Below, in pieces: positions 23,088 to 49,802 of a DNA stretch of 64,000 nt (within the stretch, counting starts at the first letter, position 1; the number at the start of each line of letters is the position of its first letter). Made by a program: the position numbers and the translations under genes. The DNA comes from Crocinitomicaceae bacterium (GTDB lineage Bacteria > Bacteroidota > Bacteroidia > Flavobacteriales_D > Parvicellaceae): assembly GCA_002723085.1 (NCBI GenBank), contig PBNK01000030.1:1-64000 (forward strand). Direction: 5' to 3'. The notes beneath the pieces were generated by a model. The model did not search any database and was not told the DNA's origin. It saw only the letters and a program-made list of their open reading frames with translations.

Positions 23088-23864
23088 TCAAAATTCAAAT
23101 TTAAAGAACCCTTTTTCAATATAGCTGTGGTATTTTTCTTTATTAAATTGATAATAAATAGCAGGTTTATGGGCCACACCTTCTTGTTTTTCATCTAGTT
23201 TATTTAATACTTCTAAATTGATAATTTTTCTTCTGAAATTTCGATTGTCAATTTTTTTATTAAATATGGCCTCATACAACTTTTGCATTTCATTTAATGT
23301 GAATTTTTCGGGAAGAAGGTTATAACCAACAGGTCTGATTTTAGTGTTGTTTCTTAAATAATTAACACTTTGATTTAATATATCAAAATGATCAAATGGT
23401 AGGTGGGCAATATCTTTTAAAGGTACCCATGTAGCTTCTTTTGCAAAGGAAGAAGGATTTAATTTAAAATCAGACATTCTAATTAAAGCATAATAGGCAA
23501 TGGTGACCACCCTTGCATTAGGATTTGTTCTCACTGCTTTTAACCATGGTTGATCTTCTTTTTTCTTTATCCTATTGGGGTTACCAAAAGCACCAAATTG
23601 TTCTAAATAGATGTTAGTTAAACCTGTTAATTCATTAAGAACTCGCTCAGCTGCTTGATTTAAGTCTTCATGGTCGTAGATTAGGTTTCCGGGAAGAGCA
23701 TAAGCAGAAGCTACATTTTTCATTTCGTCTTCTCTGTCAATAAGTAATACATGTAATTCATTACCGTCAAAACCAAACACAACACAGTCTACTGATATGT
23801 TTTCACTAAGGGTTTTAGAGGTTGATTTTTTTGTTAACATTTTAGTATATTTACTTAATGTCAT
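23088..23864 (-). CDS. NUDIX-domain transcriptional regulator (NrtR-like, winged-helix C-terminus)
   Basis: The 258-residue protein has an N-terminal NUDIX domain (VDCVVFGFDGNELHVLLI, about 25-42). Its NUDIX box (residues 59-82) is degenerate: the expected REUXEE reads RVLNEL, so a catalytic Glu is missing. A C-terminal winged-helix part follows with FTLNEMQKLYEAIFNKKIDN and RNFRRKI (about 188-215). This layout is that of NrtR-like regulators, which sense sugars or NAD metabolites instead of hydrolysing nucleotides. It is divergent from the GH13 genes and borders the starch locus, so it probably regulates it. A start at Met9 (23840) is possible; the ATG at 23864 lies inside a palindromic operator candidate. 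Confidence 0.85.
   Translation of the reverse strand: MTLSKYTKMLTKKSTSKTLSENISVDCVVFGFDGNELHVLLIDREDEMKNVASAYALPGNLIYDHEDLNQAAERVLNELTGLTNIYLEQFGAFGNPNRIKKKEDQPWLKAVRTNPNARVVTIAYYALIRMSDFKLNPSSFAKEATWVPLKDIAHLPFDHFDILNQSVNYLRNNTKIRPVGYNLLPEKFTLNEMQKLYEAIFNKKIDNRNFRRKIINLEVLNKLDEKQEGVAHKPAIYYQFNKEKYHSYIEKGFFKFEF
23822..23853 (+). promoter_or_regulatory. Candidate promoter of the GH13 pair
   Basis: TTG at 23822-23824 and TATATTTA at 23846-23853 are separated by 21 bases, a fair match to the Bacteroidota -33/-7 pattern (one mismatch in TAnnTTTG). It lies inside the 5' end of the NUDIX gene. The predicted transcription start falls within the operator candidate that follows, as expected for a repressor site. 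Confidence 0.35.
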
Positions 23865-23875
23865 TTATACGTTTA
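23855..23875. promoter_or_regulatory. Operator candidate 1 of the starch locus (21-bp palindrome)
   Basis: The site reads TTAATGTC-N5-TACGTTTA and lies between the NUDIX regulator gene and the divergent GH13 genes, touching both predicted start codons. By eye it matches the site before susC (read on the other strand) at 17 of 21 positions and the site before the maltose operon at 16 of 21. It is an inferred binding site for the NUDIX regulator. Confidence 0.55.
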
Positions 23876-26160
23876 TGAATATAAAGTTTTTTTTTCAATT
23901 TGTTCAATTTTGCATATTAATCATTTTATATTCTTGTTCAGATGGTAATTTGAATAAAGTAATTATACCACAGGCAATCACCGGTTTGTGTAGTCCTATT
24001 CAGCTAAGTATTGACGGATTGAACAAAATCGATTTAAGTGATTATTTTCTTGAAAATTATGATATCGACTCAGTGTATTTTGAGAATGAGAAAATAGATC
24101 TTGATAGTGTTTTTGTTGAGTTAAACCCAAATAAGGTAAATGCTTTTCTATCAACTCTTACAATTTATATCGGGAATATAACTTATGACATACTTGTCAA
24201 AGCTCCAGATGTGGAGAAAACAACAATATTGTTTAAAAATATCGCTGAAAATGTAAAAATTAAAGGAGAATTCACCAATTGGGTATCTGTCCCAATGGAA
24301 CTTGAAGGCAACACTTTTAAATTCACAAAAAACTTGAATCCAGCAGTTTATCAATTTTGTTTTGTTGTAGATGGAAAAGAACAATTAACTAATTATTACG
24401 ATCATGTGCCAAATGGACTAGGAGGTGAAAATTGTCAAATCATTGTGCCTAGTAAAAGAAAAGATAATCCTTCATTAAGTTTTGAATTTAATGAATTCGG
24501 AAATATTATTTTAAAAACTAAAGAAAATGATGCAGAGCTGATTGTGTTTTATGAAAATCAATTAGTAGAAGAATTTGTTTCTACTGATAAAGGATTAATT
24601 CCAATAATTCCTGAATATAGCAGTAAGATTCAATTAAGTTATCTAAGAGCGTGGTCTCATTCAAAAAAGGGATATTCTAAAGAAGTATTAATACCTATTT
24701 TATATGGAAAACCTGTTCATAGTTCATTCGAATTACCAAGACAGGCTAAACATAAAATGTCGTTATACAATGTATTTATTGATCGTTTTTATGATGGGGA
24801 ATCCAATAATCAACCTGCGCCTTTAGATAGTGTATTGCCACAAGCTCAATTTTTAGGCGGTGATTTAAAAGGACTAACTCACCAAATTAACAACGGTTAT
24901 TTTGATTCATTAGCTATAAACTCCATATGGATTTCTCCAATAGTTGATCAAGCTAAAGGAGCTTGGGGGTTGTGGAACACTCCAAGATCAAAATTCTCTG
25001 CTTATCATGGGTATTGGCCTATCTCTTTCACACAAATAAATCCAGCATTTGGAACGAAAGATGATGTTAAAACTTGTATTTCAACTGCTCATCAAAAAAA
25101 TATTAATGTATTATTAGATGTTATTGCTAATCACATCCACAGTGATCATTTACTTTATAAATCAAATCCTGAATATTTTACACCACTTTATTTTTCAGAT
25201 GGTTCCATGAATACGGAAAAATGGGATGAACATCGCCTTACTACATGGTTTGATGTTCATATGCCTTCTTTTAATCACGAAATGGAAAAAGTTAGGGAGT
25301 TGCTATCAGATTCATTAATGAAGTTAATTAAAGAATATCAATTTGATGGATTTAGACACGATGCTACTAAACATGTGCCATCATCTTTTTGGAAATTACT
25401 GACAAAAAAAATCAAGAATCAATACCAATTTGAGACAAAGCATGATTTCTTTCAAATAGGAGAGACTTACGGTTCTCATGAACTTGTTGGTAGCTATGTT
25501 AACTCTGGTCAATTAGATGCTCAATTTGATTTTAATGTTTATGATGCTATAATGAAAATTTTATGTGATGATGCTTCTTTTGAATTATTTGTTGATGTTG
25601 TTGAAAAAAGTATGAATACTTATGGTGATCACCATTTAATGGGAAATATATCCGGTAATCAGGACAAGGGGAGGTCTATTTCTTATTTTGGTGGAGATTT
25701 GAAAAGAGATGAAGATTCTAAACTTGCTGGCTGGACTAGAGAAATAGGTTATGGAGATGAAGAAATGGCATTTAAAAAAATGGCCATGATGCATGTTTTA
25801 AATAGTACTATTCCAGGAATACCTGTCATATATTATGGAGATGAAATTGGAATGCCAGGTGGAAATGATCCTGATTGCAGAAGGATTATGAAATTTAAAC
25901 ATTTAACAGAAAGAGAAAAGGGGCTTAAATCTGAGTTAAGTCATTTATTAAAGTTAAGGAGTTCTTCTATGGCATTAATTTATGGAACAATGTCTTGGGA
26001 TGAAATTAGTGAGAATCGATTAGTGTACAGTAGGAAATATGCCAATGAAGTTGTTACTATATACCTTAATAAATCTAAGTATAATCAAGAATTTAAAAAT
26101 GATGGCTTAAAATTTATACTCCAGCCTTATACTTACAAGATACTAAAAGATAACTCATGA
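23875..26160 (+). CDS. GH13 alpha-amylase-type lipoprotein (SusG-like) with NQD in motif IV
   Basis: The frame is open from 23797, but ATG at 23875 is preferred: it gives a signal peptide with Cys21 as lipid site and avoids overlap with the NUDIX gene. The 761-residue protein has an N-terminal beta-rich region that includes a CBM48/E-set-like part (GEFTNWVSVPMELEGN, near 130). A GH13 barrel follows: DVIANHIH (415), GFRHDATKH (nucleophile Asp496), QIGETYG (acid Glu530) and GNQDKG (Asp597). Motif IV has Gln where NHD is usual. It probably cuts starch at the cell surface or in the periplasm. The next GH13 gene overlaps by 4 bases. Confidence 0.85.
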   Translation: MNIKFFFQFVQFCILIILYSCSDGNLNKVIIPQAITGLCSPIQLSIDGLNKIDLSDYFLENYDIDSVYFENEKIDLDSVFVELNPNKVNAFLSTLTIYIGNITYDILVKAPDVEKTTILFKNIAENVKIKGEFTNWVSVPMELEGNTFKFTKNLNPAVYQFCFVVDGKEQLTNYYDHVPNGLGGENCQIIVPSKRKDNPSLSFEFNEFGNIILKTKENDAELIVFYENQLVEEFVSTDKGLIPIIPEYSSKIQLSYLRAWSHSKKGYSKEVLIPILYGKPVHSSFELPRQAKHKMSLYNVFIDRFYDGESNNQPAPLDSVLPQAQFLGGDLKGLTHQINNGYFDSLAINSIWISPIVDQAKGAWGLWNTPRSKFSAYHGYWPISFTQINPAFGTKDDVKTCISTAHQKNINVLLDVIANHIHSDHLLYKSNPEYFTPLYFSDGSMNTEKWDEHRLTTWFDVHMPSFNHEMEKVRELLSDSLMKLIKEYQFDGFRHDATKHVPSSFWKLLTKKIKNQYQFETKHDFFQIGETYGSHELVGSYVNSGQLDAQFDFNVYDAIMKILCDDASFELFVDVVEKSMNTYGDHHLMGNISGNQDKGRSISYFGGDLKRDEDSKLAGWTREIGYGDEEMAFKKMAMMHVLNSTIPGIPVIYYGDEIGMPGGNDPDCRRIMKFKHLTEREKGLKSELSHLLKLRSSSMALIYGTMSWDEISENRLVYSRKYANEVVTIYLNKSKYNQEFKNDGLKFILQPYTYKILKDNS

Positions 26161-28049
26161 AATTTTCTTTTTTATTTTCATTCACATTAATTACACTTTT
26201 AATTAGCGCTCAAGATTTTATTTATCATGTTGAACCACCAAATTGGTGGATTAATATGAGTTCTAATGAGTTGCAATTAATGATTCATGGGGATAAAGTA
26301 GGTGAATATGAGTTGAATATAGAACATGAGCAAATTAAAATTTTGAGAGAAAATAGATTGAGCAATCCCAACTATGTTATACTCTATTTAGAAATTTTAA
26401 AATCTGAAAAGGATTTTGATTTTAAAATCACTTTTTCTAAAGAGGGGAAGATATACGAGAATTATACTTATCATTTGTATAAGCGTGATGAAACAAATAT
26501 AAGATCAACTTTTAACTCATCAGATGTTATTTATTTAATTACTCCAGATCGTTTTGCTAACGGTGACTCTAATAATGACATTAATAAAGATTTGCTAGAG
26601 AAAAAATTAATAAGAAATAAGCCCAATGCAAGACATGGTGGGGATATCTTGGGGATAATCAATCATTTGGATTATATAGCCGAAATGGGCTTTACGGCAA
26701 TATGGTCAACTCCAATGCTAGAAAATAATATGAAAAAATTATCCTACCATGGCTATGCAATAACGGATTTGTACAAAATTGACCCAAGAATGGGTAATAA
26801 TGAGATGTATAAACAACTTTCATTGGAAGCAAATAAGCTAGGTATAAAGTTAATTAAAGATGTGGTTCTCAATCATATAGGAATTCATCATTGGTGGATG
26901 GAAGATATACCCTCCAAAGACTGGATAAACAACAAAGGGCAATTTTTCCCAACTTCACATAGAAGAGAAGTTTTACATGACCCCTATGGAGCTTCAATTG
27001 ATTATTTTAATTTTAATAGTGGGTGGTTTGTCGAAGAGATGCCAGATCTTAATCAAAAGAATCCAGATCTTGCAAAATACCTCATTCAAAATTCCATTTG
27101 GTGGATTGAATTTGCAGAATTAAGTGGTTTTCGGGTAGATACTTATTCTTATTCGGATAGAAAGTTTTTATACCAATGGAACAAAGCCATTCAAAACGAA
27201 TATCCAGGATTTAATATTGTTGGCGAAGAATGGACCATTTCTAAATCAATCATTGGATTATGGCAAAAACCCAATAAAAAGGAAGATGAAGAAATGAAAA
27301 GTTCACTCATTAAACAAAATCACCCTTCAGAATTACCTTCGTTAATGGATTTTCCTTTGCAAAATGCTATTTCACAAGCATTTAAACCAAAAAAAGACCC
27401 TTGGAATGAACCTTTGACAAACATTTATAAATCTTTGGCAGAAGATTATCTGTACCCAAATCCATCCAATATGGTCATTTTTTTGGATAATCATGATATG
27501 AGAAGGGTTTTTTTACAGTTAGAACATGATTACAATCATTGGAAAATGGCAATAGCATATCTTTTAACGACAAGAGGAATCCCACAAATATATTATGGAA
27601 CAGAAATTCTCATGTCAGATACGCTAAATCCTGGCGATCACGGAACCCTTAGAGCAGATTTTCCTGGCGGATGGGAGGATGATAAGGTTAGTGCATTTAC
27701 AGGATTTCTTAAAACAGAACAAATAGCTGCACAGGATTATATTAAAAATTTACTAAACTGGAGAAAAACTTGTAAAGCTATACATTCTGGGGCTTTAAAA
27801 CATTTTGCACCTTCAAATAATACACAATCTTATATTACTTTAAGATATAACAAAAAAACTACAGTAATGCTAGTAATTAATAAAGGGGTTAAAAAATTGA
27901 AAATCACCCCTTTTGATTATATGAGAGAGTCCAATTATATAAAGGATAATTATTCTGCTGCTAATATTGTTACTGGAGATGAATTAGATATAAGAAAAGA
28001 AATATCAATTGAGCCAAAGTCTTTATTGCTTGTAGAGCTGAACCACTAG
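26157..28049 (+). CDS. GH13 neopullulanase / cyclomaltodextrinase (SusA-like)
   Basis: The 630-residue protein has a cleavable-type signal peptide (about 1-19, ending ISAQ) and so is predicted periplasmic. An N-terminal cyclomaltodextrinase-type domain (VEPPNWWINM, near 23) is followed by ARHGGDILGIINHLDYI and the GH13 motifs DVVLNHIG (235), GFRVDTYSY (Asp328), IVGEEW (Glu357) and FLDNHDMRR (Asp447). A C-terminal beta domain closes the protein. It would cut imported maltodextrins, cyclodextrins or pullulan pieces. It overlaps the upstream GH13 gene by ATGA, and its stop codon shares a CTAG with the stop of the convergent gene. Confidence 0.9.
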   Translation: MKFSFLFSFTLITLLISAQDFIYHVEPPNWWINMSSNELQLMIHGDKVGEYELNIEHEQIKILRENRLSNPNYVILYLEILKSEKDFDFKITFSKEGKIYENYTYHLYKRDETNIRSTFNSSDVIYLITPDRFANGDSNNDINKDLLEKKLIRNKPNARHGGDILGIINHLDYIAEMGFTAIWSTPMLENNMKKLSYHGYAITDLYKIDPRMGNNEMYKQLSLEANKLGIKLIKDVVLNHIGIHHWWMEDIPSKDWINNKGQFFPTSHRREVLHDPYGASIDYFNFNSGWFVEEMPDLNQKNPDLAKYLIQNSIWWIEFAELSGFRVDTYSYSDRKFLYQWNKAIQNEYPGFNIVGEEWTISKSIIGLWQKPNKKEDEEMKSSLIKQNHPSELPSLMDFPLQNAISQAFKPKKDPWNEPLTNIYKSLAEDYLYPNPSNMVIFLDNHDMRRVFLQLEHDYNHWKMAIAYLLTTRGIPQIYYGTEILMSDTLNPGDHGTLRADFPGGWEDDKVSAFTGFLKTEQIAAQDYIKNLLNWRKTCKAIHSGALKHFAPSNNTQSYITLRYNKKTTVMLVINKGVKKLKITPFDYMRESNYIKDNYSAANIVTGDELDIRKEISIEPKSLLLVELNH

Positions 28050-30808
28050 ATTTTAATTATTTTCTTGGATGTTATTTCATGGCCTTGCTCTAAGATTATG
28101 TGATAGGTACCTTTGAGAAGGTTGTTTAGGTTTAATTTGAAGTTATTTGATTTTGTTTGTCTATCAATTATTTTTCCATTAATGTCAACAATAGTAACTC
28201 TTATAGGAGTTTTAGCACAACCATTTATTTTGACAGAAACAAAATCTTTAACAGGATTAGGGTAGGTGAGTATTTCCCATTTTGCTTCAGTTATTTCTTT
28301 TATACTTGTTGTATTTAATATATTGGGTATATCCAATCTCTGATCAGTGTAAATTCTATATTCACCAGCTTCAAGGGTAAAGTTGTAATTACCACTTACG
28401 AAAATACTATCACCTGAAAAATATTCATACCACCATCCATTATGTTGAAAAGGTTGTGTTTTATTTTGGTTTTGAACATCAATATTAGCTAATACAATAG
28501 CATTCATATTAGAATCATTTAATGTTAATGTTTTTACAGACTGGTTGAGGCTATACGTGAAATTATCTCCTGTAAATGTTGAATAGTTTTTCCTTAATTC
28601 AATAGTGGCTTTATAAACATCAAATAATCTTTTTCTACTATTTTCTTCAAGATATTGCCATAGTATGGGTTTGTTACACACTCTACAAGGATAATCTATG
28701 GAAATATCATAGCCTTGCTCTCCAAATTGCCAAATCATTTTGGGTCCTGGTGAAGTAAACATTATTACAGCTAATGCTTCACATCGTTCTAAAGCTGTTA
28801 AAGGATTTTTTGCGTTATGATTTAGGCCTGAATTACCATAGGTAATGTTTTTATACATAATTCTTTCTTCGTCATGACTTTCCATGTAAGTTATTAAATG
28901 AGGATTTGACCACCCTCTATGAGAGTAAATTCCCCAGCTTAAATCAGAATTGTTTACATAACCCATTCCAGATTCTTGATACTGATGAGTAATATTTCCC
29001 CACAACATCATTCCATAATTTGATAATATTTTCTCTTCATTGTTGTCTGCCCAATGCTCTAGAATGATGTATGACTCTGGGTGCACGCTCCATATAGTGT
29101 CTGCCATTCTTTTTAATAACTGAATTCTATTGTTATCGTAATTATTAGAATTGTTTATGAACCCTTTAGTAAAGTCGTATCTGAATCCATCAATATGATA
29201 TTCATCTAACCAATAGTGATTTACTCGATCCACGAAGTTTTGAGTTGCTTGAGACTCATGGTTATAATCATAGCCCCAACAATTTGGTGGATGAGGACAA
29301 GAGGAATTAAACCAAGGATTGTTAGATGCTGGTTGATTGTTAATACCGTCCCAATATAGATTTACCATTGGATTTTGTCCATATGCATGATTAAATACGA
29401 TATCAACAATTACGGCAATTCCTCTACCGTGACAAGAATCTATAAATGCTTTAAAATGTTCAGGATTACCATAATATTTATCTAAAGCCATATGAAAACT
29501 TGGGTTGTATCCCCAACTTTCATTGTTTTCAAATTCTCCAGGAGGCATCAATTCAATAGCGTTAACCCCCAGTTCTGTCAAGTAGTCTAAAGTGTCGATT
29601 AATGTTAAATAGCTATGAGTAGATAAAAAATCACGAACTAGTAGTTCATAAATGACCAAATCTTTATTGTTTGGTTTGTTGAAGTTAGTGTTAATCCAAT
29701 TATAAGCAGTTTTACCTGGTTGCATTACAGTCACAAAACCATTGGTGTAATTAGCTGGATATGGGATAGGGTTGGGGTATGTTAGACTTCCTATATCATT
29801 ATCATTATTAGGATCTAAAATTAAAGGGCTAAATGGGTCAGCAACCTTGATAATACCGTCTACAAGGAATTGATAGGTATATGCTTGTCCAGGGATTAAG
29901 CTAGAAATAGTTTTCCACCAGTAGGTACTATCTAAAGATAAGTTCATAAAAGAAGCAGAATTAATTTCCCAATTATTATGGTCGCCAATTAGATTTACGG
30001 TGTTTTTTTCAGGAGCAAAAAATTTAATAGTAACTGTAGAATCATTGATGTAGTTAATTCCATCTAGTGTTCCATTTGGAGCATCTTGAAAATTGGTTGT
30101 TGGAATCACTACATAGGAAATGGTATCATATAAGATTGTTGTACCATCATTAGCTACCATAATTATTTCATGATCACCAGCAGTGTTTACATTTAAATTG
30201 TGTTGTAATATGGTGCTTGTAATCGCATTGGCTATTAGTATACCATTGTCATATAGTTCAATTGTTGCGTTAGTGTTTGTTTGAGCTTCAATTAATATAA
30301 TATCATTTAGATTAACAATTTTGTGGTGGTATGGTTTTAAAATGGCAGCTTGAAACCCTCCGTTAACAGGATAAATAGGATAAAATATATCATCTAAATT
30401 TGCGGTTTTACCTTCAGCAGAGCCATCCACATTTCGAAACACAAAAGCTAATTTGGCTACATTGGTTCCAATTGGAAATCCGTAAAATTGGTCAATATCT
30501 ATGGTTATTTCATGTTTGTTATTTCCAATGTCAGTCATTATTACATTTGAATCTGCTTGCCCCCAATTTCCTTGTACATGTGACCAAGAACTCGGTAATC
30601 CACTTTGTGTTACTACTCCAGTATGTGCATAAACTGGACTGATTCCTTGTAATCCTCCATTGCCTTGTGTAGCATCATATTGAACTGTTATAACATCGTT
30701 AATTGTTGGGAATGGGGGTGATATTTCTATTATTTGTAAGTAGATTTCATTTTGAAAAATGATTTGAAAAAAAAGAAATAATATGATTTTTCTTGTTATG
30801 GAATGCAC
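28046..30808 (-). CDS. Secreted GH13 amylase with CBM48-like domain and T9SS sorting domain
   Basis: The 920-residue protein starts at GTG (30808); no ATG is available between the in-frame TAA four codons upstream and the signal peptide. Domains: signal peptide, starch-binding-type beta domain (about 25-150), Ig-like region, CBM48-like NLIGDHNNWEI (near 276), GH13 barrel with DIVFNHAYG (469), GFRYDFTKGF (Asp545), ILEHWADN (Glu584) and MESHDEER (Asp646), and a C-terminal T9SS domain (TYPNPVKDF to the end, about 848-920). It is predicted to be exported through the T9SS and surface-attached or released. The next gene upstream ends in a terminator, so it may need its own promoter. Confidence 0.88.
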   Translation of the reverse strand: MHSITRKIILFLFFQIIFQNEIYLQIIEISPPFPTINDVITVQYDATQGNGGLQGISPVYAHTGVVTQSGLPSSWSHVQGNWGQADSNVIMTDIGNNKHEITIDIDQFYGFPIGTNVAKLAFVFRNVDGSAEGKTANLDDIFYPIYPVNGGFQAAILKPYHHKIVNLNDIILIEAQTNTNATIELYDNGILIANAITSTILQHNLNVNTAGDHEIIMVANDGTTILYDTISYVVIPTTNFQDAPNGTLDGINYINDSTVTIKFFAPEKNTVNLIGDHNNWEINSASFMNLSLDSTYWWKTISSLIPGQAYTYQFLVDGIIKVADPFSPLILDPNNDNDIGSLTYPNPIPYPANYTNGFVTVMQPGKTAYNWINTNFNKPNNKDLVIYELLVRDFLSTHSYLTLIDTLDYLTELGVNAIELMPPGEFENNESWGYNPSFHMALDKYYGNPEHFKAFIDSCHGRGIAVIVDIVFNHAYGQNPMVNLYWDGINNQPASNNPWFNSSCPHPPNCWGYDYNHESQATQNFVDRVNHYWLDEYHIDGFRYDFTKGFINNSNNYDNNRIQLLKRMADTIWSVHPESYIILEHWADNNEEKILSNYGMMLWGNITHQYQESGMGYVNNSDLSWGIYSHRGWSNPHLITYMESHDEERIMYKNITYGNSGLNHNAKNPLTALERCEALAVIMFTSPGPKMIWQFGEQGYDISIDYPCRVCNKPILWQYLEENSRKRLFDVYKATIELRKNYSTFTGDNFTYSLNQSVKTLTLNDSNMNAIVLANIDVQNQNKTQPFQHNGWWYEYFSGDSIFVSGNYNFTLEAGEYRIYTDQRLDIPNILNTTSIKEITEAKWEILTYPNPVKDFVSVKINGCAKTPIRVTIVDINGKIIDRQTKSNNFKLNLNNLLKGTYHIILEQGHEITSKKIIKI

Positions 30809-30866: not shown

Positions 30867-31613
30867 TTATTTCTTCAATATTTTACCAGTTTTAAAATTG
30901 TTAACGTAATTTATTTCATAGATATAGATTCCAGATTTAAGAGAAGATAAATCACAATTAATGGAATGTGTCCCAACAGATAAAAAACCATTAAAAACTT
31001 GTTTTATTTTTTTTCCAGTAATATCATATATGTCAATAAATAAATATTGATTTTGACTTAAAGATATATCAAAATTGGTTTCGTGCTCAGAAGGATTAGG
31101 TGATACATTAACATAATCAATAGCATCACGGTTAATAATATTCATCGCAGGATTTCCTCCACTACATGTTGAACAAGAGTCCCAACAATAAGTATACGTC
31201 ATATTTGATGAAGGTATAGTTAGTATTCTGTCACTTCCAAATCCTCCAGCCCCACCACAAAGCGTGTCCGTTACTATTTCATCATTTCCCCAATCACCAT
31301 TAACAAATTTATATTGTAATTCAAATCCAATAGAGGATGCTGGATATTCTACAGAAATAGACCAAATGTTGTCTCCATCACTGTCATCCATTGCACCATT
31401 TGCATCAGTAGGTGTCCAGTCAACCATAGGATTTCCTCCTGTGGTTGCTCCCATGGTTGATAAATTCCCAGCTATTCTTATTCCAGAGGGATCTAAAGTA
31501 GCTCCTCCATTAAGATAGTTTGTTATGTCAACTTGATGAACAACAGTGACTGTTTGACCAAAAGTCAGCGATGTTATGCATAAAAGGGCTAAAAAAAAGT
31601 AGTGTTTTTTCAT
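30867..31613 (-). CDS. Small T9SS-exported protein, possibly starch-binding
   Basis: The 248-residue protein has a signal peptide (about 1-19) and a beta-rich domain of about 120 residues with IRIAGNLSTMG, DSDGDNIWSISVEYP and LQYKFVNGDWGNDE. This pattern resembles CBM20/CBM48-like starch-binding modules, which is an inference. A Cys-rich spacer (CWDSCSTCSGG, near 142) and a T9SS C-terminal domain follow (VSPNPSEHETNF, then the final 80 residues ending KTGKILKK). It has no catalytic domain. It is divergent from susC with 102 bases between, sharing an operator candidate, and might replace SusE/SusF in holding starch at the surface. Confidence 0.7.
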   Translation of the reverse strand: MKKHYFFLALLCITSLTFGQTVTVVHQVDITNYLNGGATLDPSGIRIAGNLSTMGATTGGNPMVDWTPTDANGAMDDSDGDNIWSISVEYPASSIGFELQYKFVNGDWGNDEIVTDTLCGGAGGFGSDRILTIPSSNMTYTYCWDSCSTCSGGNPAMNIINRDAIDYVNVSPNPSEHETNFDISLSQNQYLFIDIYDITGKKIKQVFNGFLSVGTHSINCDLSSLKSGIYIYEINYVNNFKTGKILKK

Positions 31614-31657: not shown

Positions 31658-31678
31658 TTAACGTAGAAATGACGTAAA
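31658..31678. promoter_or_regulatory. Operator candidate 2 of the starch locus (21-bp palindrome)
   Basis: The site reads TTAACGTA-N5-GACGTAAA in the divergent gap between the small T9SS-exported protein and susC, 37 bases before the susC ATG. Read on the other strand it is TTTACGTC-N5-TACGTTAA and matches operator candidate 1 at 17 of 21 positions. A second short palindrome, TTTACGTAAA at 31632-31641, lies nearby and may be a further half-site. Confidence 0.55.
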
Positions 31679-31715: not shown

Positions 31716-34700
31716 ATGAGCGCTATTAAATCTTTTATTGTTTTTTTATTTATTAGTATTACACTTAACTCTATTTCTCAATATTCTATTAGTGGTTTAG
31801 TTCAAGATCAAAATGGAGAATCACTTATTGGTACAACTGTTCTAATAAAAGAGTTGTCTAAGGGCACAAGTTCAGATATAAAAGGTTATTACAATATTAA
31901 TGATTTGCCAAAAGGTAGCTATACTCTAGTTTTTTCTGCTGTTGGGTATATTACAATAACTGAAAATATTGAGTTAAAAAATAATTTACAAAAGAATATT
32001 ATAATGAAAGAAGATGTTCTTTTATTAAATGAAGCTGTTGTTATTGGATATGGAACTGCTAGGACAAAAGATTTAACAGGTTCAGCAGTGGCAGTAAGTG
32101 AAGATGATTTTTTAAAAGGGTCACTTGCTTCTCCTGAGCAATTGATTATGGGTAAAGTTCCTGGTTTAAAAGTAACTTCAAATGATGGGGGCCCTGGCTC
32201 AGGAAGCTCTTTAAGAATAAGAGGAGGTACTTCAATAAATGCTAGTAATGATCCTTTGATTGTTGTGGACGGAGTTCCATTAGATAATGGCGGAATTGCT
32301 GGAGCTGCAAATCCTCTATCTTTAATCAATCCAAATGATATCGAATCTTTTGTTGTGCTAAAAGACGCATCTGCTTGTGCTATTTACGGCTCAAGAGCCG
32401 CTAATGGTGTTATTCTTATAACAACTAAAAAGGGAAAAGGCAAATTAAGCATTACGGTGAATCAGAAAACATCTGTATCTACTGTAGTTAAATATGCAGA
32501 TGTTCTAAGTGGAGATTCATTATGGAACCTTGTTCAAAATAATGGAAATGCTGCTCAAATTCAATTATTAGGAGACACTAATTATAATACAAATTGGCAA
32601 AGAGAAGTTTTTAGAACGGCAATTGTAAATGATTTTAATATTGCAGTTAGTAAAAAGTTTTTTAGATTTTCTTATGGTAATCGTATTGACAATGGTTTGT
32701 TAAAGAAAGATCAATTTATTAGAAATAATATAAGTTTAAATATAAATCCTTCTTTTTTGGATAATCATATTCAAATTGAATCAAATAATAAACTTGTTCA
32801 ATCTAGTTCTAATTTTGCAGATAGGGGAGCTCTTGGAGCTGCCTATTTTGATCCAACTAAACCAGTAATATCAGGTGATTCTGTTTTTGGAGGTTATTAT
32901 GAATGGTTACAGAATTCAGGTTCTCCAAATACGTTGTCCGCTAAAAATCCTGTAGGCTTAATAAATCAAAGAAAGGACATTAGTCAAGTTAGTAGGTATA
33001 TTGCTAATTCAAAAGTTACTTATAAAACCCATTTTTTACCGGAATTAAAGTTAGTATATAATGCAGGTGTTGATTTTTCTGAAGGTTCTGGCACTGTAGA
33101 AGTTCTTTCAAGTTCAGCAGCTGGTTATTTTTCTGAAGGTTCATATAATACTTACAGATCAAATAAACGAAATTTTTTATCTGAAGCATATTTTAGCTTT
33201 AACAACAATAAAGAGGATAAAAAATCTTTTATTGATATAATTGGAGGTTATTCTTATCAGTATTGGAATTCAGAAAGCCCTAATTTACCAGTTTATAATG
33301 CTTCCCAAGATTCTATAATTTATCCTGCTGCTGAAAATCCTTTTTTCACAGAAAATGCTTTGTTATCATATTATACTAGAGCAATTTATAATTTCAATGA
33401 CAGATATGTTTTTAATGCTGCATTACGAAGAGATGGTTCTTCAAGGTTTAGTCCAGCTGCTCGATGGGGTTTATTTCCTTCATTATCTGCTGCGTGGATT
33501 ATTAGCGGAGAAAAATTTATGAAAAATTTTAATTCAATTAATTTACTTAAAATTAGATTTGGATATGGAGTTACTGGTCAACAGGATGGTATAGGAGATT
33601 ATGCATACATTTCTAATTATTATGAAGGTACTTCGACAGCTCAATATTCCTTTGGATCAGACTTTTATTATGTCTACAGACCGGGGGCTTTTGATGCTAA
33701 CTTGAAATGGGAGGAGACCCTTAGCTATAATTTGGGCGTTGATTTTGGACTCTTTAATGATAGAATATCTGGAAGTCTTGATTTTTATCAAAAAGAAACG
33801 AAAGATTTGCTAGCAACAGTAGCTGTGCCAGCTGGTACAAATTTTTCTAATCAAATTTTAACAAATGTTGGAGGAATGCTTAATAAAGGGGTTGAGTTTA
33901 ACGTTAACATTGGTTTATTTGCTAATAAAGATTTACGATTAGATTTGGTTGCCAATGCTACTTATAATTTGAATAAAGTAACCAAGTTAGCATTGATAGA
34001 AGATACTAACTCTGTAGGCATTCAAGTTGGGGGCATTTCTGGAGGCATTGGAAATACTGTTCAAGTTCATAGTGTTGGATTTTCTACTTTTTCTTACTTG
34101 TTATATCAGCAATTGTATGACAATAATGGGGAGTTTATTGAAGTTGGTCAACAAGCAAATATTGATGTAAATAATGATGGAACTGTTGATTCCCAAGATA
34201 AATGGCAAAACATTCATGCTTATGCAGACTTAAATAATGATGGAGATATTACGCCTGAGGATAAATATATATTTAACAAAACAGCTCCAGATTTCTTATT
34301 TGGTGCTGCCTTAAATATGAATTATAAAAAATGGTATGCTGGACTTTCATTTAGAGCTGAATTAGGAGGATACATATATAATAATATTCATTCAAATACT
34401 TCAACTTTCCAATCTTTGAATGGAACACAAGGGTTTTTAAATAACATAAGTTCATTATATTATAATAATCAAGTCCAATCTATTACTCCAAACCAATTGT
34501 TGAGTGATCATTATTTGGAGAAAGCAAATTTTTTAAGATTAGATTTTTTAAATATTGGATATGATTTCGGTAAAATATCTGAGAAAATACCTTTTAATAT
34601 GGATGCATCTTTTACTGTTCAAAATGTTTTTGTTTTAACAAAGTATCAAGGTTTAGATCCCGAACTTGGTGGTGGTATCGATAATAATATCTATCCTAGA

Positions 34701-34739
34701 CCACGATTGTATTCAATTAATTTTAAGTTTAATTTTTAA
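31716..34739 (+). CDS. susC: SusC-like TonB-dependent outer-membrane transporter
   Basis: The 1007-residue protein has a signal peptide (about 1-21) and a carboxypeptidase-regulatory-like domain (ISGLVQDQNGESLIGTTVLI, about 24-43). The SusC TonB-box/plug region follows (AVVIGYGTARTKDLTGSA, about 108-125; RIRGGTSINASNDPLIVVDG, near 170-190), and then the 22-strand barrel. Two Ca-loop-like stretches, DVNNDGTVDSQDK (817) and DLNNDGDITPEDK (838), sit in a late extracellular loop. It imports maltodextrins across the outer membrane with the SusD lid encoded 10 bases downstream. Starch specificity is inferred from the GH13/GH65 neighbourhood. Confidence 0.93.
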   Translation: MSAIKSFIVFLFISITLNSISQYSISGLVQDQNGESLIGTTVLIKELSKGTSSDIKGYYNINDLPKGSYTLVFSAVGYITITENIELKNNLQKNIIMKEDVLLLNEAVVIGYGTARTKDLTGSAVAVSEDDFLKGSLASPEQLIMGKVPGLKVTSNDGGPGSGSSLRIRGGTSINASNDPLIVVDGVPLDNGGIAGAANPLSLINPNDIESFVVLKDASACAIYGSRAANGVILITTKKGKGKLSITVNQKTSVSTVVKYADVLSGDSLWNLVQNNGNAAQIQLLGDTNYNTNWQREVFRTAIVNDFNIAVSKKFFRFSYGNRIDNGLLKKDQFIRNNISLNINPSFLDNHIQIESNNKLVQSSSNFADRGALGAAYFDPTKPVISGDSVFGGYYEWLQNSGSPNTLSAKNPVGLINQRKDISQVSRYIANSKVTYKTHFLPELKLVYNAGVDFSEGSGTVEVLSSSAAGYFSEGSYNTYRSNKRNFLSEAYFSFNNNKEDKKSFIDIIGGYSYQYWNSESPNLPVYNASQDSIIYPAAENPFFTENALLSYYTRAIYNFNDRYVFNAALRRDGSSRFSPAARWGLFPSLSAAWIISGEKFMKNFNSINLLKIRFGYGVTGQQDGIGDYAYISNYYEGTSTAQYSFGSDFYYVYRPGAFDANLKWEETLSYNLGVDFGLFNDRISGSLDFYQKETKDLLATVAVPAGTNFSNQILTNVGGMLNKGVEFNVNIGLFANKDLRLDLVANATYNLNKVTKLALIEDTNSVGIQVGGISGGIGNTVQVHSVGFSTFSYLLYQQLYDNNGEFIEVGQQANIDVNNDGTVDSQDKWQNIHAYADLNNDGDITPEDKYIFNKTAPDFLFGAALNMNYKKWYAGLSFRAELGGYIYNNIHSNTSTFQSLNGTQGFLNNISSLYYNNQVQSITPNQLLSDHYLEKANFLRLDFLNIGYDFGKISEKIPFNMDASFTVQNVFVLTKYQGLDPELGGGIDNNIYPRPRLYSINFKFNF

Positions 34740-34749
34740 TGAAATAAAA

Positions 34750-36426
34750 ATGAAAAAAACTAGTTGTTTAATAATATTTTTATTTGGATTTTTTTCATGC
34801 CAAAAGTCATTAGACCTTTCTCCTCGTTATGGATTTAATGCTGAAGTTGTTTACAGTGAGCCAAATAACTACATTAAAGTATTGGCCAAGTTGTATTCTG
34901 GTTTGTCTATGACTGGAATACAGGGTCCAGCTGGTCAGCCAGATATATCTCAAGAAACTATTGATGAAGGGTTTTCTGCCTATGTAAGGGTTTTATGGAA
35001 TCTTCAGGAACTACCCACTGATGAAGCTGTTTGTGGATGGAATGATCCAGGAATACCAACTTTAAACAAAATGCAATGGAACGCTGAGGACGGATGGGTT
35101 AAAGGTATGTACTATAGAATTTATTATCAAATAACCCTTTGCAATGAATATATTTTTCAATCTCGTGATGAAAAACTTTCCCAGAGGGGTTTTAGTGATT
35201 TAGATATTCAAACTATACAAACCTATAGGAATGAAGCTAGGTTTTTAAGAGCTTTGAGCTATTACCATGCTTTAGATTTGTTTGGAAGTGTTCCATTTGT
35301 AGATGAAAATGATAGAGTAGGTGCTTTCGAACCTCCACAGATTTCTAGAGAAAATTTATTTTTATATGTAGAGTCTGAATTACTTGATATTGAAAATGAA
35401 TTATTAGATGCCAATTCTGCTCCATATGGAAGAGCTACTAAGCAGGCTGTTCAAACATTACTAGCTAAAATGTATTTAAATGCTGAAGTGTATATTGGCT
35501 CAGAAAGATATTCTGATTGTATCAATTTTTGTAATGAAGTTATTTCAAGTAATAATTTTCAATTAGATGATAATTATCAAGATATATTTTTAGCAGATAA
35601 TAATTTATCGCCTGAAATTATATTTCCAGTTGTTTATGATGGGTTATATGCCCAAACATGGGGTGGTACAACTTTTATGGTTTGTGCTTCAATAGGAGGG
35701 GATATGAATGCTTCAGAATATGGAGTAAATGGCGGTTGGGGAGGATTAAGAGCAACACCTGAATTTGTGAATAACTTTGATCTTGTTGAAAAATATTGGG
35801 TTGAAGATATTACTAATCCTTTAAATCCTGATACTTCCTTGTTAACTAATTTACCGACAGATCCAAACTTTATTGTTTTTGACACTATTCAGACTACAGA
35901 TGATGGACGTTTTTTGTTTTTTCAAGAAGGCCAACAGTTAGAAATTACTAGTTTAGGAAACTTTAGACACGGTTACGCTTTTCCTAAATATAAAAACATC
36001 AACTCTGATGGAAGTATTGCCTCAAATAATGGGTTTAGCGCACATGTAGATATTGATTTTCCAATGTTTCGTTTAGCAGATGTATATTTAATGTATGCCG
36101 AATCATCACTTAGAAAAGGAGATCAAGCCACTGCTTTACAATATGTTAACGCTCTTCGTCAAAGGGCTTATGGAAATTCAAATTATGACTATACAAATAT
36201 AACATTAGAGGATATTTTAGATGAAAGGTCTTGTGAATTAAGCTGGGAAGGTACAAGAAGAACAGATCTTATTAGATATGGTTATTTTACATCTTCATCA
36301 TATTTATGGTCTTATAAAGGTGGGGAGATAAATGGTACTGCAGTAGGTGATTATTTGAATTTATTTCCTATACCTACAGCTGATATCGTATTAAATTCTA
36401 ATCTGATTCAAAATAATGGGTATTAG
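34750..36426 (+). CDS. susD: SusD-like (RagB/SusD) glycan-binding lipoprotein
   Basis: ATG at 34750 is chosen because it gives a lipoprotein signal (FFSC, Cys17) and lies 10 bases after the susC stop. The frame is open further upstream into susC, but that part has no signal. The 558-residue protein has the SusD TPR-type fold: YYQITLCNEYI (near 122), RNEARFLRALSYYHALDLFGSVPFV (split over about 157-181), PMFRLADVYLMYAE (near 437), VNALRQRA and LDERSCELSWEGTRRTDLIRYG (late; shown here in part as ERSCELSWEG). It binds oligosaccharide and closes the SusC pore. It overlaps the next GH13 gene by 11 bases. Confidence 0.93.
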   Translation: MKKTSCLIIFLFGFFSCQKSLDLSPRYGFNAEVVYSEPNNYIKVLAKLYSGLSMTGIQGPAGQPDISQETIDEGFSAYVRVLWNLQELPTDEAVCGWNDPGIPTLNKMQWNAEDGWVKGMYYRIYYQITLCNEYIFQSRDEKLSQRGFSDLDIQTIQTYRNEARFLRALSYYHALDLFGSVPFVDENDRVGAFEPPQISRENLFLYVESELLDIENELLDANSAPYGRATKQAVQTLLAKMYLNAEVYIGSERYSDCINFCNEVISSNNFQLDDNYQDIFLADNNLSPEIIFPVVYDGLYAQTWGGTTFMVCASIGGDMNASEYGVNGGWGGLRATPEFVNNFDLVEKYWVEDITNPLNPDTSLLTNLPTDPNFIVFDTIQTTDDGRFLFFQEGQQLEITSLGNFRHGYAFPKYKNINSDGSIASNNGFSAHVDIDFPMFRLADVYLMYAESSLRKGDQATALQYVNALRQRAYGNSNYDYTNITLEDILDERSCELSWEGTRRTDLIRYGYFTSSSYLWSYKGGEINGTAVGDYLNLFPIPTADIVLNSNLIQNNGY

Positions 36427-38746
36427 GATTTTAAATAATAAATACCTTTTTACTTTCCTTATTTTCTTTTGTTTAACATTTGTTTATAAGGCACAGGTTA
36501 ATTTACCTTCTAATCAAGTTGTTCTACAAGGGTTTTGGTGGGATTTTAATAATTTAAATTACCCACAAGCATGGTCAAATTATTTGGCAGACCTTTCTCC
36601 TCGTTTAAAGGCCATAGGCATAGATGCAATTTGGATTCCACCCTCCATAAAAAATAAAGCAAGTATTGATATGGGTTATGCTCCTTTTGATCATTATGAC
36701 CTTGGTGATAAATATCAGAAAGGGTTTTTAAAAACTAAATTAGGCGATAAGGATGAATTGTTAAGATGTGTAGCTGTAATGAAAGCCAATGGAATTGATG
36801 TTATTCAAGATATTGTCCTGAATCACATTACTGGAGCTGGCAGCGGTAGTGGTCAGGGTGGACAAGACCCTGTTGCTTTAGATGATGGTTCAACAAATAA
36901 ATTTAAGAATTTTAGGTATACATCTTTTAAAACTCCAGCCTATAATGAAACATCAAATAACTATTTAGCCAGAGAAGGAAGATTTTCAAAAAATTGGCAA
37001 AATTTTTACCCTAATAATTCAAATATGTGTTGTACTAATGAGATTAATTCACCTTATTGGGGGCCAGATATTTCATATGAATCTGATGCTTTTGGTTTAA
37101 GCAGTAATGCAATTTACAACCCTTTTCAAGGCAGTAATTACATGAGGGACGAAATGAGAAATTGGATAATGTGGTATAAAAAACAAGTAGGGTGGTCAGG
37201 AGTTAGGTTGGATGCAATTAAGCATTTCCCCACATATGTAGCTGAAGATTATTTATGGAATTTACAACATGGAAATGGATGGGCTAGTGAATCTGATCAA
37301 ATGTATGCAGTTGGAGAATGGGTTGGAGGTGCAAATGAATTGGATTTATGGTGCAACAATGTTCAAAATAGAGCTGGAACATTTGATTTTGCTTTAAGAA
37401 ATGCTTTAGTTGGAATTGTCCAAGGAAATGGATCTTTTGATTTGTCTACTGTCCCAAGTTATCAACAATTAAATCGTCAAAGAACTGTTCCTTTTGTTAA
37501 TAATCATGATACATTTAGGCCAGTATTAGATAGTGATGGCAATTATATTGGTTGGAATACGGGTCAGCAACTAGGGGCTCATATTGAACCAAATGATTCA
37601 AGGCTTAGCCTTGTTTATGCCATATCTTTTTCTTTAGATGGGTCTCCCATGGTTTTTTTTGAAGACCTATTTAATGTTGGATATAATAGCAACAGATATA
37701 ATCACCTTCCTAAAGATACTGTTGGTTTACCTATGAGAGACGATATAGTAAATATTATATGGTGTCATCAAAATTTACATTTTAAGGATGGAGCTTATAT
37801 AGTTAGGTGGCAAGAAAATGATGCTTTGGTTATTGAAAGAGACAGTAAGGCTTTGATAGCGGTAAATGATCAGTTCAGTAATTGGAAAAATTTAAATGGT
37901 GTTCAAACTAGCTGGCCTGATGGTACTGTTTTGAAAGATTATAGCCAAGCAAATGTTTCAACTGTTACAGTTTATGGTGGAGGAAAAGTAGATATAGCTA
38001 TACCACCTTGCAATGGCTCTGCAAATAATGGGCGTAAAGGGTATTGTATTTGGGCTCCTATAGGTATACAAATGAATTATTTAAACCCATCAGAATCAAT
38101 TACTCAGGAATGGGAAATGGCTGATGATTTAGGAGATAGTCATCCAGGTTCTTTGAAACAAGGAGGGGCATTGCCCGATCAAAGTAGAGACTGCAGGGTA
38201 GTTGGAAAGGTACATGTCAAAGATAGTTCAATTATAAGTGTTGAATTATATCCCGAATTAAGTAGTTTATCAATAGATTTGATTTTATTAGATGGCAATT
38301 GCAACCCTATTGATTCAATTTCAGGAACCGGAAATTTATTTTATGATTTTTATGTTAGTGAAGAAGATTGGTATACAATTAGAGTAAGAAACTCATCAGA
38401 TACTCAAGATGGTCAAGGTTGTTGGGTAAAAGTTAATTATAATGCTCCTTCAAATCCAGACTTAACCTTAACTAAAGATAAATGCGCTTGTCAGATACCC
38501 CCTCCTCCTTCAATAATAAATAGTATTGAATATGATAATTATCATTTATACCCTAATCCGGTATCAGATTTTTTAATTATTGAAAATGAAAATATTAAAA
38601 GTACTTTTATAATATACGATTTGTTGGGGAAACAGATGATTGAAGGAGAATTTTATAAAACTGCACAAATAAATGTTCAATATTTAGATCCAGGACAGTA
38701 TTTTATTAAAATAGGTCAGAGAGTTCAACAGTTTATTAAATTGTAA
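36416..38746 (+). CDS. Secreted GH13 alpha-amylase with T9SS sorting domain
   Basis: The 776-residue protein has a signal peptide (about 1-27). The barrel starts almost at once (VVLQGFWWDF, about 34), as in bacterial endo-acting alpha-amylases. Motifs: DIVLNHITG (132), GVRLDAIKHF (Asp266), AVGEWVGG (Glu301) and VNNHDTFRP (Asp365). A beta domain, a Cys-containing PPC-like region (about 560-690) and a T9SS C-terminal domain (LYPNPVSDF onward, about 710-776) follow. It is likely the main extracellular starch-cutting enzyme. It overlaps susD by 11 bases and the convergent GH65 gene by 11 bases. No SusE/SusF-type gene lies between susD and this gene. Confidence 0.9.
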   Translation: MGIRILNNKYLFTFLIFFCLTFVYKAQVNLPSNQVVLQGFWWDFNNLNYPQAWSNYLADLSPRLKAIGIDAIWIPPSIKNKASIDMGYAPFDHYDLGDKYQKGFLKTKLGDKDELLRCVAVMKANGIDVIQDIVLNHITGAGSGSGQGGQDPVALDDGSTNKFKNFRYTSFKTPAYNETSNNYLAREGRFSKNWQNFYPNNSNMCCTNEINSPYWGPDISYESDAFGLSSNAIYNPFQGSNYMRDEMRNWIMWYKKQVGWSGVRLDAIKHFPTYVAEDYLWNLQHGNGWASESDQMYAVGEWVGGANELDLWCNNVQNRAGTFDFALRNALVGIVQGNGSFDLSTVPSYQQLNRQRTVPFVNNHDTFRPVLDSDGNYIGWNTGQQLGAHIEPNDSRLSLVYAISFSLDGSPMVFFEDLFNVGYNSNRYNHLPKDTVGLPMRDDIVNIIWCHQNLHFKDGAYIVRWQENDALVIERDSKALIAVNDQFSNWKNLNGVQTSWPDGTVLKDYSQANVSTVTVYGGGKVDIAIPPCNGSANNGRKGYCIWAPIGIQMNYLNPSESITQEWEMADDLGDSHPGSLKQGGALPDQSRDCRVVGKVHVKDSSIISVELYPELSSLSIDLILLDGNCNPIDSISGTGNLFYDFYVSEEDWYTIRVRNSSDTQDGQGCWVKVNYNAPSNPDLTLTKDKCACQIPPPPSIINSIEYDNYHLYPNPVSDFLIIENENIKSTFIIYDLLGKQMIEGEFYKTAQINVQYLDPGQYFIKIGQRVQQFIKL

Positions 38747-41009
38747 TATTTAAAGATTCTTCAGTTTTTAGCAAATAGCTTGATTCTTTTCTGAAGTTTA
38801 CCTTAATTAGTTTATCTCCATTATTTTTAATGTTTAATTTTTCTCTGTTGAAGAAAACATTAATAGTATTATTTTGCACTTTTAGATTGAAGGTTAATGA
38901 ATTCCAATTTTTAGGAAGTTTCGGATTAATATATAGTTCTTGATTTTTGATTTTTATTCCTGCAAAACCTTCGATTATAGAAATCCATGTTCCAGCCATA
39001 CTTGTTATATGAAGCCCCTCATCAGCCTCATGGTTGTAGTCATCTAGATCTAATCTAGAGGTTCTTAAATAAAGTTCATAAGCTTTTTCTATGGAGTTAA
39101 TTCTACAAGCAAGAATGGAATGAATACAAGGAGATAAAGATGATTCATGAACTGTTTTTGGTTCATAAAAATTAAAATTTTCTTTGATGGTTTTTATGTC
39201 AAAATCTTCTTCAAAAAAATAGATTCCTTGTAAAACATCTGCTTGCTTAATAAAAACTGATCTTAGGATTCTGTCCCATGACCAATTTTGATTTATTGGC
39301 CTTTCTTTTAGGGGAATATCTTTAACACTTAATTGTTCTTTGTCTAGAAAACCATCTTGTTGTAAAAATATGTTACTGTTGGCAATTTGAGGTAAATAAG
39401 TATTTTTAATTATTTTATTCCATTTTTTTATTTCTTCATCACTAATTTTTTTTGAATTAACAAATTCTTGACTTTCTAAAGTATATTTCAAACACCATCT
39501 TGCTATGTAATTTGTATACCAGTTATTGTTGATATTATTTTCGTATTCATTTGGTCCAGTAACCCCTAATATGACATAAGAGTTTTTTTCTTCAGACCAA
39601 TTGAACCTTTGTTCCCAAAATCTTGAAATAGCAACAAGAACATCAATACCATAATTAATTAAATAGTTTTTATCCCCAGTATGTTCAATGTAATTGAAAA
39701 TGGCATATGCAATAGCTCCATTTCTATGGATTTCTTCAAAAGTAATTTCCCATTCATTGTGACATTCTTCTCCATTCATGGTTACCATTGGATATAATGC
39801 TGCTCCATTTTTGAATCCAAGCTTTTTTGCGTTTTCAATAGCCTTGTCTAATTGATTGAAGCGATACATTAGCAATTGTCTAGCTACCAATGAATGGTTC
39901 GTTTTTAAATAAAAGGGCAAGCAGTAAGCTTCAGTATCCCAATATGTGGCTCCTCCATACTTTTCACCCGTAAATCCTTTTGGGCCAATATTTAATTTCT
40001 CGTTTTTTCCTGTGTAAGTTTGATACAATTGAAAAATATTAAATCGTATTCCTTGTTGTGCTTTCTTATCACCCGCTATAGTGATATCTGACTTTTCCCA
40101 TATTTCTTCCCAAGCTTTTATATGGTTTTTCAATAATTCTTCGTATCCAATTGCTATAGCATTTTTCGAAACACGGACTGATTCTTCAACTACATTTGCT
40201 TTTGCATCATTAAGGTTGGTAGAAATCCCAACATATTTGGAGATAGTGTAAGTTTGATTTTCTTTAATTTCAATTTGAAATTTATTGGATATTTTAAAAG
40301 GTTCTTCTAGAACTTCTGGAATGACTTCCAATTTTTTTTCATTGCACTCAACCATATATTCCATAGCAGTTGATTGCAAAAATTTAGTCTTTTTTGTTGA
40401 GGTGCAAACATGACCCTTGTATTTGTTACAAGATGAAACTTCATGATTCCAAAATAGTTCATTGAAATTTGTGTCGTTATTGTATACTTTGCCATTTAAA
40501 TAAACTTCTGCTGTAAGTTTTCCTGAAAAATTTTTTGGTTTAATATTCACTTTAACTACTCCTAAATTAGGATTGTCCATAGAACAAAAGCGATCAAATT
40601 CTAATAACAATTCACTTTCATCATTTAACTGTAAAGTAACTTTTCGACTTAATAGACCTTTTTTCATGTCAAGTGTTTTGTTAAATGAAATCACTTTTTG
40701 ATTATGAATATCAATTAGCTTATTATTAACAATTAAATTTATGCCAATCCAATTGCATGAGTTTAATACTTTTGCAAAGTATTCAGGATATCCATTTTTC
40801 CACCATCCTACTTTTGTTTTGTCAGGATAATAAATCCCTCCCAAGTAACTTCCTTGCAGAGTAGGGCCAGAAAAGTTTTCTTCAAAATTTGCTCTTTGAC
40901 CAAAAGAGCCATTTCCAATGCTAAAAATACTTTCAGATTGGAGTTGTTTAGATGGTTCATAATGATTTTGAACAATCTTCCATTCATCAATTTCAAATAG
41001 ATTTTTCAT
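38736..41009 (-). CDS. GH65 family glycoside phosphorylase (probable maltose phosphorylase)
   Basis: The 757-residue cytosolic enzyme has an N-terminal beta-sandwich (SIFSIGNGSFGQRANFEE, about 27-44) and an (alpha/alpha)6 barrel. The catalytic block is GEECHNEWEITFEE; the Glu of NEWE is residue 419, and the family general acid lies in this stretch. A C-terminal beta domain is present. It converts maltose and phosphate to beta-glucose-1-phosphate and glucose. The downstream partner, beta-phosphoglucomutase, overlaps its start by 17 bases, which supports maltose rather than trehalose use only in part: kojibiose, nigerose or trehalose phosphorylase remain possible. Confidence 0.87.
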   Translation of the reverse strand: MKNLFEIDEWKIVQNHYEPSKQLQSESIFSIGNGSFGQRANFEENFSGPTLQGSYLGGIYYPDKTKVGWWKNGYPEYFAKVLNSCNWIGINLIVNNKLIDIHNQKVISFNKTLDMKKGLLSRKVTLQLNDESELLLEFDRFCSMDNPNLGVVKVNIKPKNFSGKLTAEVYLNGKVYNNDTNFNELFWNHEVSSCNKYKGHVCTSTKKTKFLQSTAMEYMVECNEKKLEVIPEVLEEPFKISNKFQIEIKENQTYTISKYVGISTNLNDAKANVVEESVRVSKNAIAIGYEELLKNHIKAWEEIWEKSDITIAGDKKAQQGIRFNIFQLYQTYTGKNEKLNIGPKGFTGEKYGGATYWDTEAYCLPFYLKTNHSLVARQLLMYRFNQLDKAIENAKKLGFKNGAALYPMVTMNGEECHNEWEITFEEIHRNGAIAYAIFNYIEHTGDKNYLINYGIDVLVAISRFWEQRFNWSEEKNSYVILGVTGPNEYENNINNNWYTNYIARWCLKYTLESQEFVNSKKISDEEIKKWNKIIKNTYLPQIANSNIFLQQDGFLDKEQLSVKDIPLKERPINQNWSWDRILRSVFIKQADVLQGIYFFEEDFDIKTIKENFNFYEPKTVHESSLSPCIHSILACRINSIEKAYELYLRTSRLDLDDYNHEADEGLHITSMAGTWISIIEGFAGIKIKNQELYINPKLPKNWNSLTFNLKVQNNTINVFFNREKLNIKNNGDKLIKVNFRKESSYLLKTEESLNITI

Positions 41010-44370: not shown

Positions 44371-44391
44371 TAAACGTCAAATAGACGTTTA
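44371..44391. promoter_or_regulatory. Operator candidate 3 of the starch locus (perfect 21-bp palindrome)
   Basis: The site is a perfect inverted repeat, TAAACGTC-N5-GACGTTTA, 28 bases upstream of the GH13 start that opens the maltose operon. Of the three related sites it is the most symmetrical. No LacI-type gene is adjacent, although such a gene is usual in flavobacterial maltose operons; the NUDIX regulator is the local candidate. Confidence 0.65.

Positions 44392-48383: not shown

Positions 48384-49802
<1,419 letters not shown>

Follow-up and report, generated by a model that had tools for sequence, protein, structure and literature searches.

Which protein controls the maltodextrin/starch genes of this Crocinitomicaceae bacterium? 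The window (the whole 64,000-nucleotide stretch of DNA that was analysed) holds a complete locus with four GH13 proteins and a secreted amylase, a susCD pair, GH65, a beta-PGM-like HAD protein and an MFS transporter. Profile searches thus agree with an earlier, sequence-only reading of this DNA, which had described a maltodextrin/susCD locus. The genes are as follows.

23088..23840, minus strand: NUDIX-fold/winged-helix regulator, 250 aa from the probable ATG at 23840 (start placed by comparison with the relatives L003 and L005)
23875..26160, plus strand: putative lipoprotein of the GH13 family that carries an AMPK1-type glycogen-binding module, transcribed divergently from the regulator (Pfam; start read from the sequence)
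26157..28049, plus strand: GH13, cyclomaltodextrinase-like (profile matches)
28046..30808, minus strand: GH13 with CBM48 and a T9SS sorting domain (profile matches)
30867..31613, minus strand: T9SS-sorted protein with no role assigned, divergent from susC (Pfam)
31716..34739, plus strand: SusC (TIGR04056, 651 bits)
34666..36426, plus strand: SusD (starch-binding SusD is the NCBIfam model that fits best, with a score below its cut-off; the true start lies inside the frame)
36416..38746, plus strand: alpha-amylase, T9SS-secreted (profile matches)
38736..41009, minus strand: GH65, maltose phosphorylase type (profile matches)
40993..41640, minus strand: HAD protein, beta-phosphoglucomutase type (assigned by context)
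41633..42994, minus strand: MFS sugar transporter (profile match)
42996..44342, minus strand: GH13 of the alpha-amylase family, opening the operon behind operator O3 (profile match)

The window also contains a short lipoprotein-like ORF built of HSHDGGDA and AAEGGE repeats (55092-55385).

The sequence-only reading had taken the NUDIX-type protein to be the only regulator in the locus and had seen no LacI protein, and both statements held. A Pfam scan of 30 ORFs in the window, the whole locus included, found no second regulator domain, and the LacI HTH domain (PF00356) was absent from the 2.43-Mb assembly (95% complete), in which positive controls were detected; control of the locus by a LacI protein encoded elsewhere was rejected for this reason. 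Among 25 GH65-bearing relatives, 22 are likewise without LacI, and the LacI genes of the other three lie on contigs other than those holding GH65 or the regulator.

The regulator and its family

The listed ORF (23088-23864, minus strand, 258 codons) opens at ATG 23864. Comparison with relatives places this codon inside a conserved palindromic operator, and in the closest relative, L003 (80% identical), the frame from the upstream ATG meets a stop before a GTG start; because of this, translation probably begins at ATG 23840 and not at 23864.

Three Pfam domains are matched above cut-off: NrtR_WHD (5e-25), AraR_C (1.5e-12) and NUDIX (1.5e-6). At residues 66-71 of the 250-aa form, RVLNEL stands in place of the REUXEE of the NUDIX box, so that two of the three glutamates are gone. 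An active NUDIX enzyme was rejected. The winged helix, the degenerate box and the loss of a catalytic glutamate had all been recognised in the sequence-only reading. Its description of the protein as NrtR-like stands for the fold and the domain order but not for the branch, which is that of the sugar-sensing AraR/XylR proteins and not of the NAD-controlling NrtR. An AlphaFold model built with 28 homologues (pLDDT 85.8) has BtAraR as its best match in the PDB (Foldseek E about 1e-22; VIA Z about 24, 36% identity), with SoNrtR second.

Besides the lost catalytic glutamates and the sugar contacts (below), two traits of the AraR/XylR branch are present, namely a NUDIX-like domain joined to an AraR_C/NrtR_WHD winged helix, above the Pfam cut-offs, and palindromes of about 21 bp at sugar-catabolic promoters, the regulator's own included. 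In the tree, the window protein falls in a 22-row clade (100/89) within a 70-row clade (100/99). AraR proper was rejected as its identity: AraR lies outside its clade, mal genes and not arabinose genes adjoin it, and Lys179 and Lys184 of AraR are replaced by Asn and Arg, respectively. In BtAraR, residues R34, R86, F129 and H131 hold L-arabinose (PMC4666351). All four are conserved in the window protein, the position of Arg86 being ambiguous because of a 15-residue insertion. Schleiferiaceae-type orthologues have Gln at the Arg34 equivalent, so the sugar pocket is not uniform across orthologues. The insertion was rejected as a trait of the mal group, since the XylR-like regulator L202 has it too.

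Operators and the recognition residue

The palindromes mentioned in the sequence-only reading do exist; three are listed here as candidate operators.

23855..23875: O1, TTAATGTCATTTATACGTTTA, within the 34 bp that separate the start of the regulator (23840) from that of the divergent GH13 gene (23875); kept in G004, G026, G035 and, at a contig edge, G033
31658..31678: O2, TTAACGTAGAAATGACGTAAA, upstream of susC; a strict-pattern site, at the same position in six relatives
44371..44391: O3, TAAACGTCAAATAGACGTTTA, a perfect inverted repeat (8+5+8) ahead of the GH13-MFS-PGM-GH65 operon

An ACGT-type palindrome is thus present at all three mal promoters. O1 is imperfect (5/7 arm pairs match) and scores with the family PWM in a range that shuffled windows sometimes attain, so its weight comes from conservation. 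Within the window, the family-wide PWM gave three matches, none beyond levels that shuffles sometimes reach, and significance was accordingly judged by conservation. A strict symmetric-arm scan (6/7 pairs) overlooked many sites, the outer bases of the arms being variable. The top PWM match of the window, ATTATGTCAAATTAACATTAA (48424-48444), lies a short way ahead of a gene for glutamate dehydrogenase that is divergent from urocanase, and may be a chance occurrence.

The 21-bp palindrome TTAGTGTnAAnTTnACACTAA is found upstream of 50 of 54 homologues, and the window's clade has the diverged form AACGTnnnnnnGACRTT (or AACGTN6GACGTT). Our genome-wide operator scans were pattern-based. The strict pattern AACGTN6RACGT occurs at two places in the whole 2.43-Mb genome, both in the mal locus, against a chance expectation of about 0.3 strand hits under an order-3 Markov model; it was derived from the window's own sites, so the relatives and L202 serve as the independent tests. 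All six relatives found to have the locus (G004, G026, G035, G019, G033 and G031) carry an ACGT-type site in the interval from the T9SS gene to susC. In the other family members searched, such a site is absent or lies only within other genes (G002, G003). One extra ACGT-type site was seen in G026, upstream of an unrelated gene, and permitting one mismatch in the ACGT pattern yields many chance matches.

A further link between protein and site comes from the recognition helix. In the BtAraR–DNA complex, Lys179 touches the first G of GTGT (PMC4666351). Its equivalent is Asn in the window protein, and among homologues this residue covaries with operator base 7, Lys going with GTGT, Asn with ACGT (the window's clade) and Thr with TTGT. 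The switch is seen even among close homologues (Lys in L099 and L100, Thr in L107). L202 (regulator at L202:8959), a XylR-like regulator of the Asn type that is independent of the window's clade, has the perfect ACGT palindrome TTAACGTATTTTTTACGTTAA, and L215 combines Asn with GCGT/ACGT. There are exceptions, with Lys facing a possible ATGT palindrome in L002 and some TTGT/GTGT hybrids in Lys-type cases, so the rule is not strict. From sequence alone, the covariation ties the regulator to its putative operator.

Neighbourhoods, proposed mechanism and alternatives

Comparison of neighbourhoods, proposed in the sequence-only reading as a check, came out in its favour. Among 299 Flavobacteriales genomes, 117 encode GH65 together with a strong homologue (205 bits or more), 33 the homologue only, 14 GH65 only and 135 neither (Fisher p 7e-36, a statistic that ignores phylogeny). 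A strong homologue is thus found in 117/131 GH65 genomes. Orthologues adjoin GH65/PGM/MFS/GH13 genes in many genera, and the homologue and GH65 are 15 kb apart or less in 87 of the 88 genomes having both on one contig. The typical order in Crocinitomicaceae is regulator / glucokinase-like kinase - GH13 - MFS - PGM - GH65 - amylase, and in Schleiferiaceae/Cryomorphaceae it is regulator / pfkA - gapA - kinase - PGM - GH65 - GH13; zwf-pgl-edd-eda is present in some neighbourhoods. Homologues from cultivated Pedobacter strains (L190, L194, L203-L206, L213, L214, L219, L220 and L225), which do not have the 15-residue insertion, adjoin pfkA, a glucokinase-like gene and gapA. The label "glucokinase-like" is based on context and on a BcrAD_BadFG match below threshold. 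Because the relatives' regulators adjoin glycolysis and Entner–Doudoroff genes, the locus appears to belong to a wider glucose-catabolic theme, and the protein is best read as a gluco-regulator and not as one for maltose in the strict sense. In L208, L209, L185, L222 and L217, the gene of a NUDIX regulator immediately precedes those of a sugar transporter and of what, by eye and not by a profile, looks like a GH94 cellobiose phosphorylase; these are probable cellobiose regulators. The L202 regulator adjoins a transporter and xylulokinase-like and xylose-isomerase-like genes (also recognised by eye).

The source genome encodes a single paralogue (G000 C8:21719-22378, equivalent to L092:9620-10279), 46% identical, with Lys at the key position and with methionyl-tRNA formyltransferase and a cupin-like gene as neighbours. 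Palindromes of the GTGT/TTGT type lie immediately upstream of the glucokinase-like (L229:9041-9061), GAPDH (L244:4747-4767) and PFK (L245:4486-4506) genes, and precede two further susCD pairs with no substrate assigned (L242:5042-5062 and L243:4525-4545). With one mismatch permitted, the GTGT-type pattern is not enriched in the source genome (16 places, the reversed control giving 20); what is telling is the placement of the sites before GK, GAPDH and PFK, not their total number. The Lys-type paralogue is the probable reader of these glycolytic sites, and the simplest reading is a division in which the paralogue would serve them, leaving the maltodextrin sites to the window protein. In four relatives (L246, L247, L256 and L257), a conserved palindrome, TTAGTGT...ACACTAA, precedes by about 100 bp a gene of 336 aa that looks like glutamine synthetase.

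Neighbourhood, co-occurrence, the conserved operator found at each promoter in the locus and residue/base covariation all favour the proposal, made from the sequence alone, that the regulator controls maltodextrin use. We consider it likely that it is an autoregulated AraR/XylR-type repressor of the maltodextrin/starch locus that binds the palindromes at the three promoters and is released by an intracellular sugar, most likely glucose. The C-terminal winged helix of the dimer would bind the 21-bp palindromes (wwAACGTnnnnnnGACGTTww) at the regulator/GH13 divergon, ahead of susCD-amylase and ahead of GH13-MFS-PGM-GH65, and the apo dimer would repress these promoters, its own included, following the BtAraR precedent. 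The catalytically dead NUDIX domain would bind the intracellular sugar, the proposed ligand being free D-glucose from GH65 phosphorolysis of maltose; binding would rotate the winged helices off the DNA and so de-repress the locus. Free D-glucose is our tentative first choice of effector, because branches of the insertion-bearing clade adjoin maltose phosphorylase, GH94-like and xylose genes and both phosphorylases free glucose. Xylose is glucose minus C6.

Whether the regulon is confined to the mal locus is the point on which the nearest alternative turns. The window protein might be a general regulator of glucose use and glycolysis, HexR-like in role, with the mal locus as one part of a wider regulon: orthologues adjoin pfkA, gapA, the glucokinase-like gene and zwf-pgl-edd-eda, and the GK, GAPDH and PFK genes of the source genome have GTGT-type palindromes ahead of them. 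However, by the strict pattern, the ACGT-type operator suiting the Asn residue is found only in the mal locus of that genome, and the glycolytic GTGT/TTGT sites better fit the Lys-type paralogue at C8:21719, which makes a wider regulon rather unlikely. An activator in place of a repressor is less probable again: operator position alone is compatible with activation, but the operators lie near start codons and likely -7 boxes, and arabinose releases BtAraR from DNA, with up-regulation (PMC4666351). It is from this precedent and these positions that repression, and not activation, is deduced.

Slightly less credible than an activator is the possibility that a SusR-like or other undetected regulator runs the locus while the window protein only autoregulates; the assembly may lack about 5% of the genome, yet each of the three promoters has the same operator type, and seven genomes keep the susC site. 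The least probable alternative by some way is an NAD-metabolism NrtR that senses ADP-ribose and is merely parked by the mal genes. The fold is common to both and there is a weak match to the NCBIfam ADPR-responsive model, but that model (NF050029) scores 117.9 bits against a cut-off of 400, the residues with which SoNrtR holds the ADP-ribose phosphates (PMC4666351) are replaced at AraR positions 67 and 89, AraR is structurally closer, no NAD genes lie nearby and the operators are locus-wide. An ADP-ribose/NAD sensor was rejected on these grounds.

On a broader proposal we are evenly divided: that a large clade of NUDIX regulators in Bacteroidota comprises the phylum's own gluco-regulators (of maltodextrin, cellobiose, glycolysis and Entner–Doudoroff genes), sensing free glucose-type aldoses, and that a Lys to Asn change moved the maltodextrin regulon of the window's lineage from GTGT to ACGT, insulating it from the glycolytic regulon of the Lys paralogue.

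Comparison with known systems

Regulation of starch and glucose use is little described in Bacteroidota beyond Flavobacteriaceae and Bacteroides. We found no NUDIX regulator assigned to maltose, starch or glycolysis in Bacteroidota in the open-access literature, in line with the sequence-only reading, which had held control of maltodextrin use to be a new assignment: the proposed regulon is new, the protein family known. Crocinitomicaceae, Schleiferiaceae/Cryomorphaceae and other families now have a candidate regulator with candidate operators and a predicted ligand, which makes regulons predictable from sequence. The residue-to-base rule is a simple one for a protein family in which DNA motifs have been described as highly variable (PMC4666351).

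The closest known system is the Bacteroides L-arabinose regulator BtAraR (BT0354; PDB 5BS6/5DD4/5DDG/5DEQ), which has in common with the window protein the fold, a dead NUDIX box, a sugar locus, the sugar contacts R34/R86/F129/H131, the DNA-contact residues R180 and N181 and a 21-bp palindromic operator. The two are about 36% identical and differ in the 15-residue insertion, which in the window protein precedes the RVVTIAYY strand, in Asn for Lys179, in an ACGT for a GTGT half-site and in the changes F49 to Leu and G48 to Asn; the window protein adjoins maltodextrin genes, BtAraR arabinose genes. The XylR-like regulators, with which BtXylR (BT0791) is grouped, were compared through L202. L202 belongs to the same insertion-bearing clade and has the Asn recognition residue and an ACGT palindrome, but sits by xylose-type genes (by eye). 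The NAD regulator NrtR of Shewanella oneidensis (3GZ5/3GZ6/3GZ8) has the same fold and domain order, whereas its ADP-ribose-binding residues and NAD genes are absent here and the similarity is much lower. In Flavobacterium IR1, the equivalent MFS/bPGM/GH65/GH13 cluster includes a LacI gene, lacI23, in the same place as the regulator described here (PMC9131120). The two proteins belong to unrelated families and no LacI was found in the source genome; given the LacI gene of the equivalent cluster, the replacement of one regulator family by another, LacI on the one hand and the NUDIX type on the other, is a fair description.
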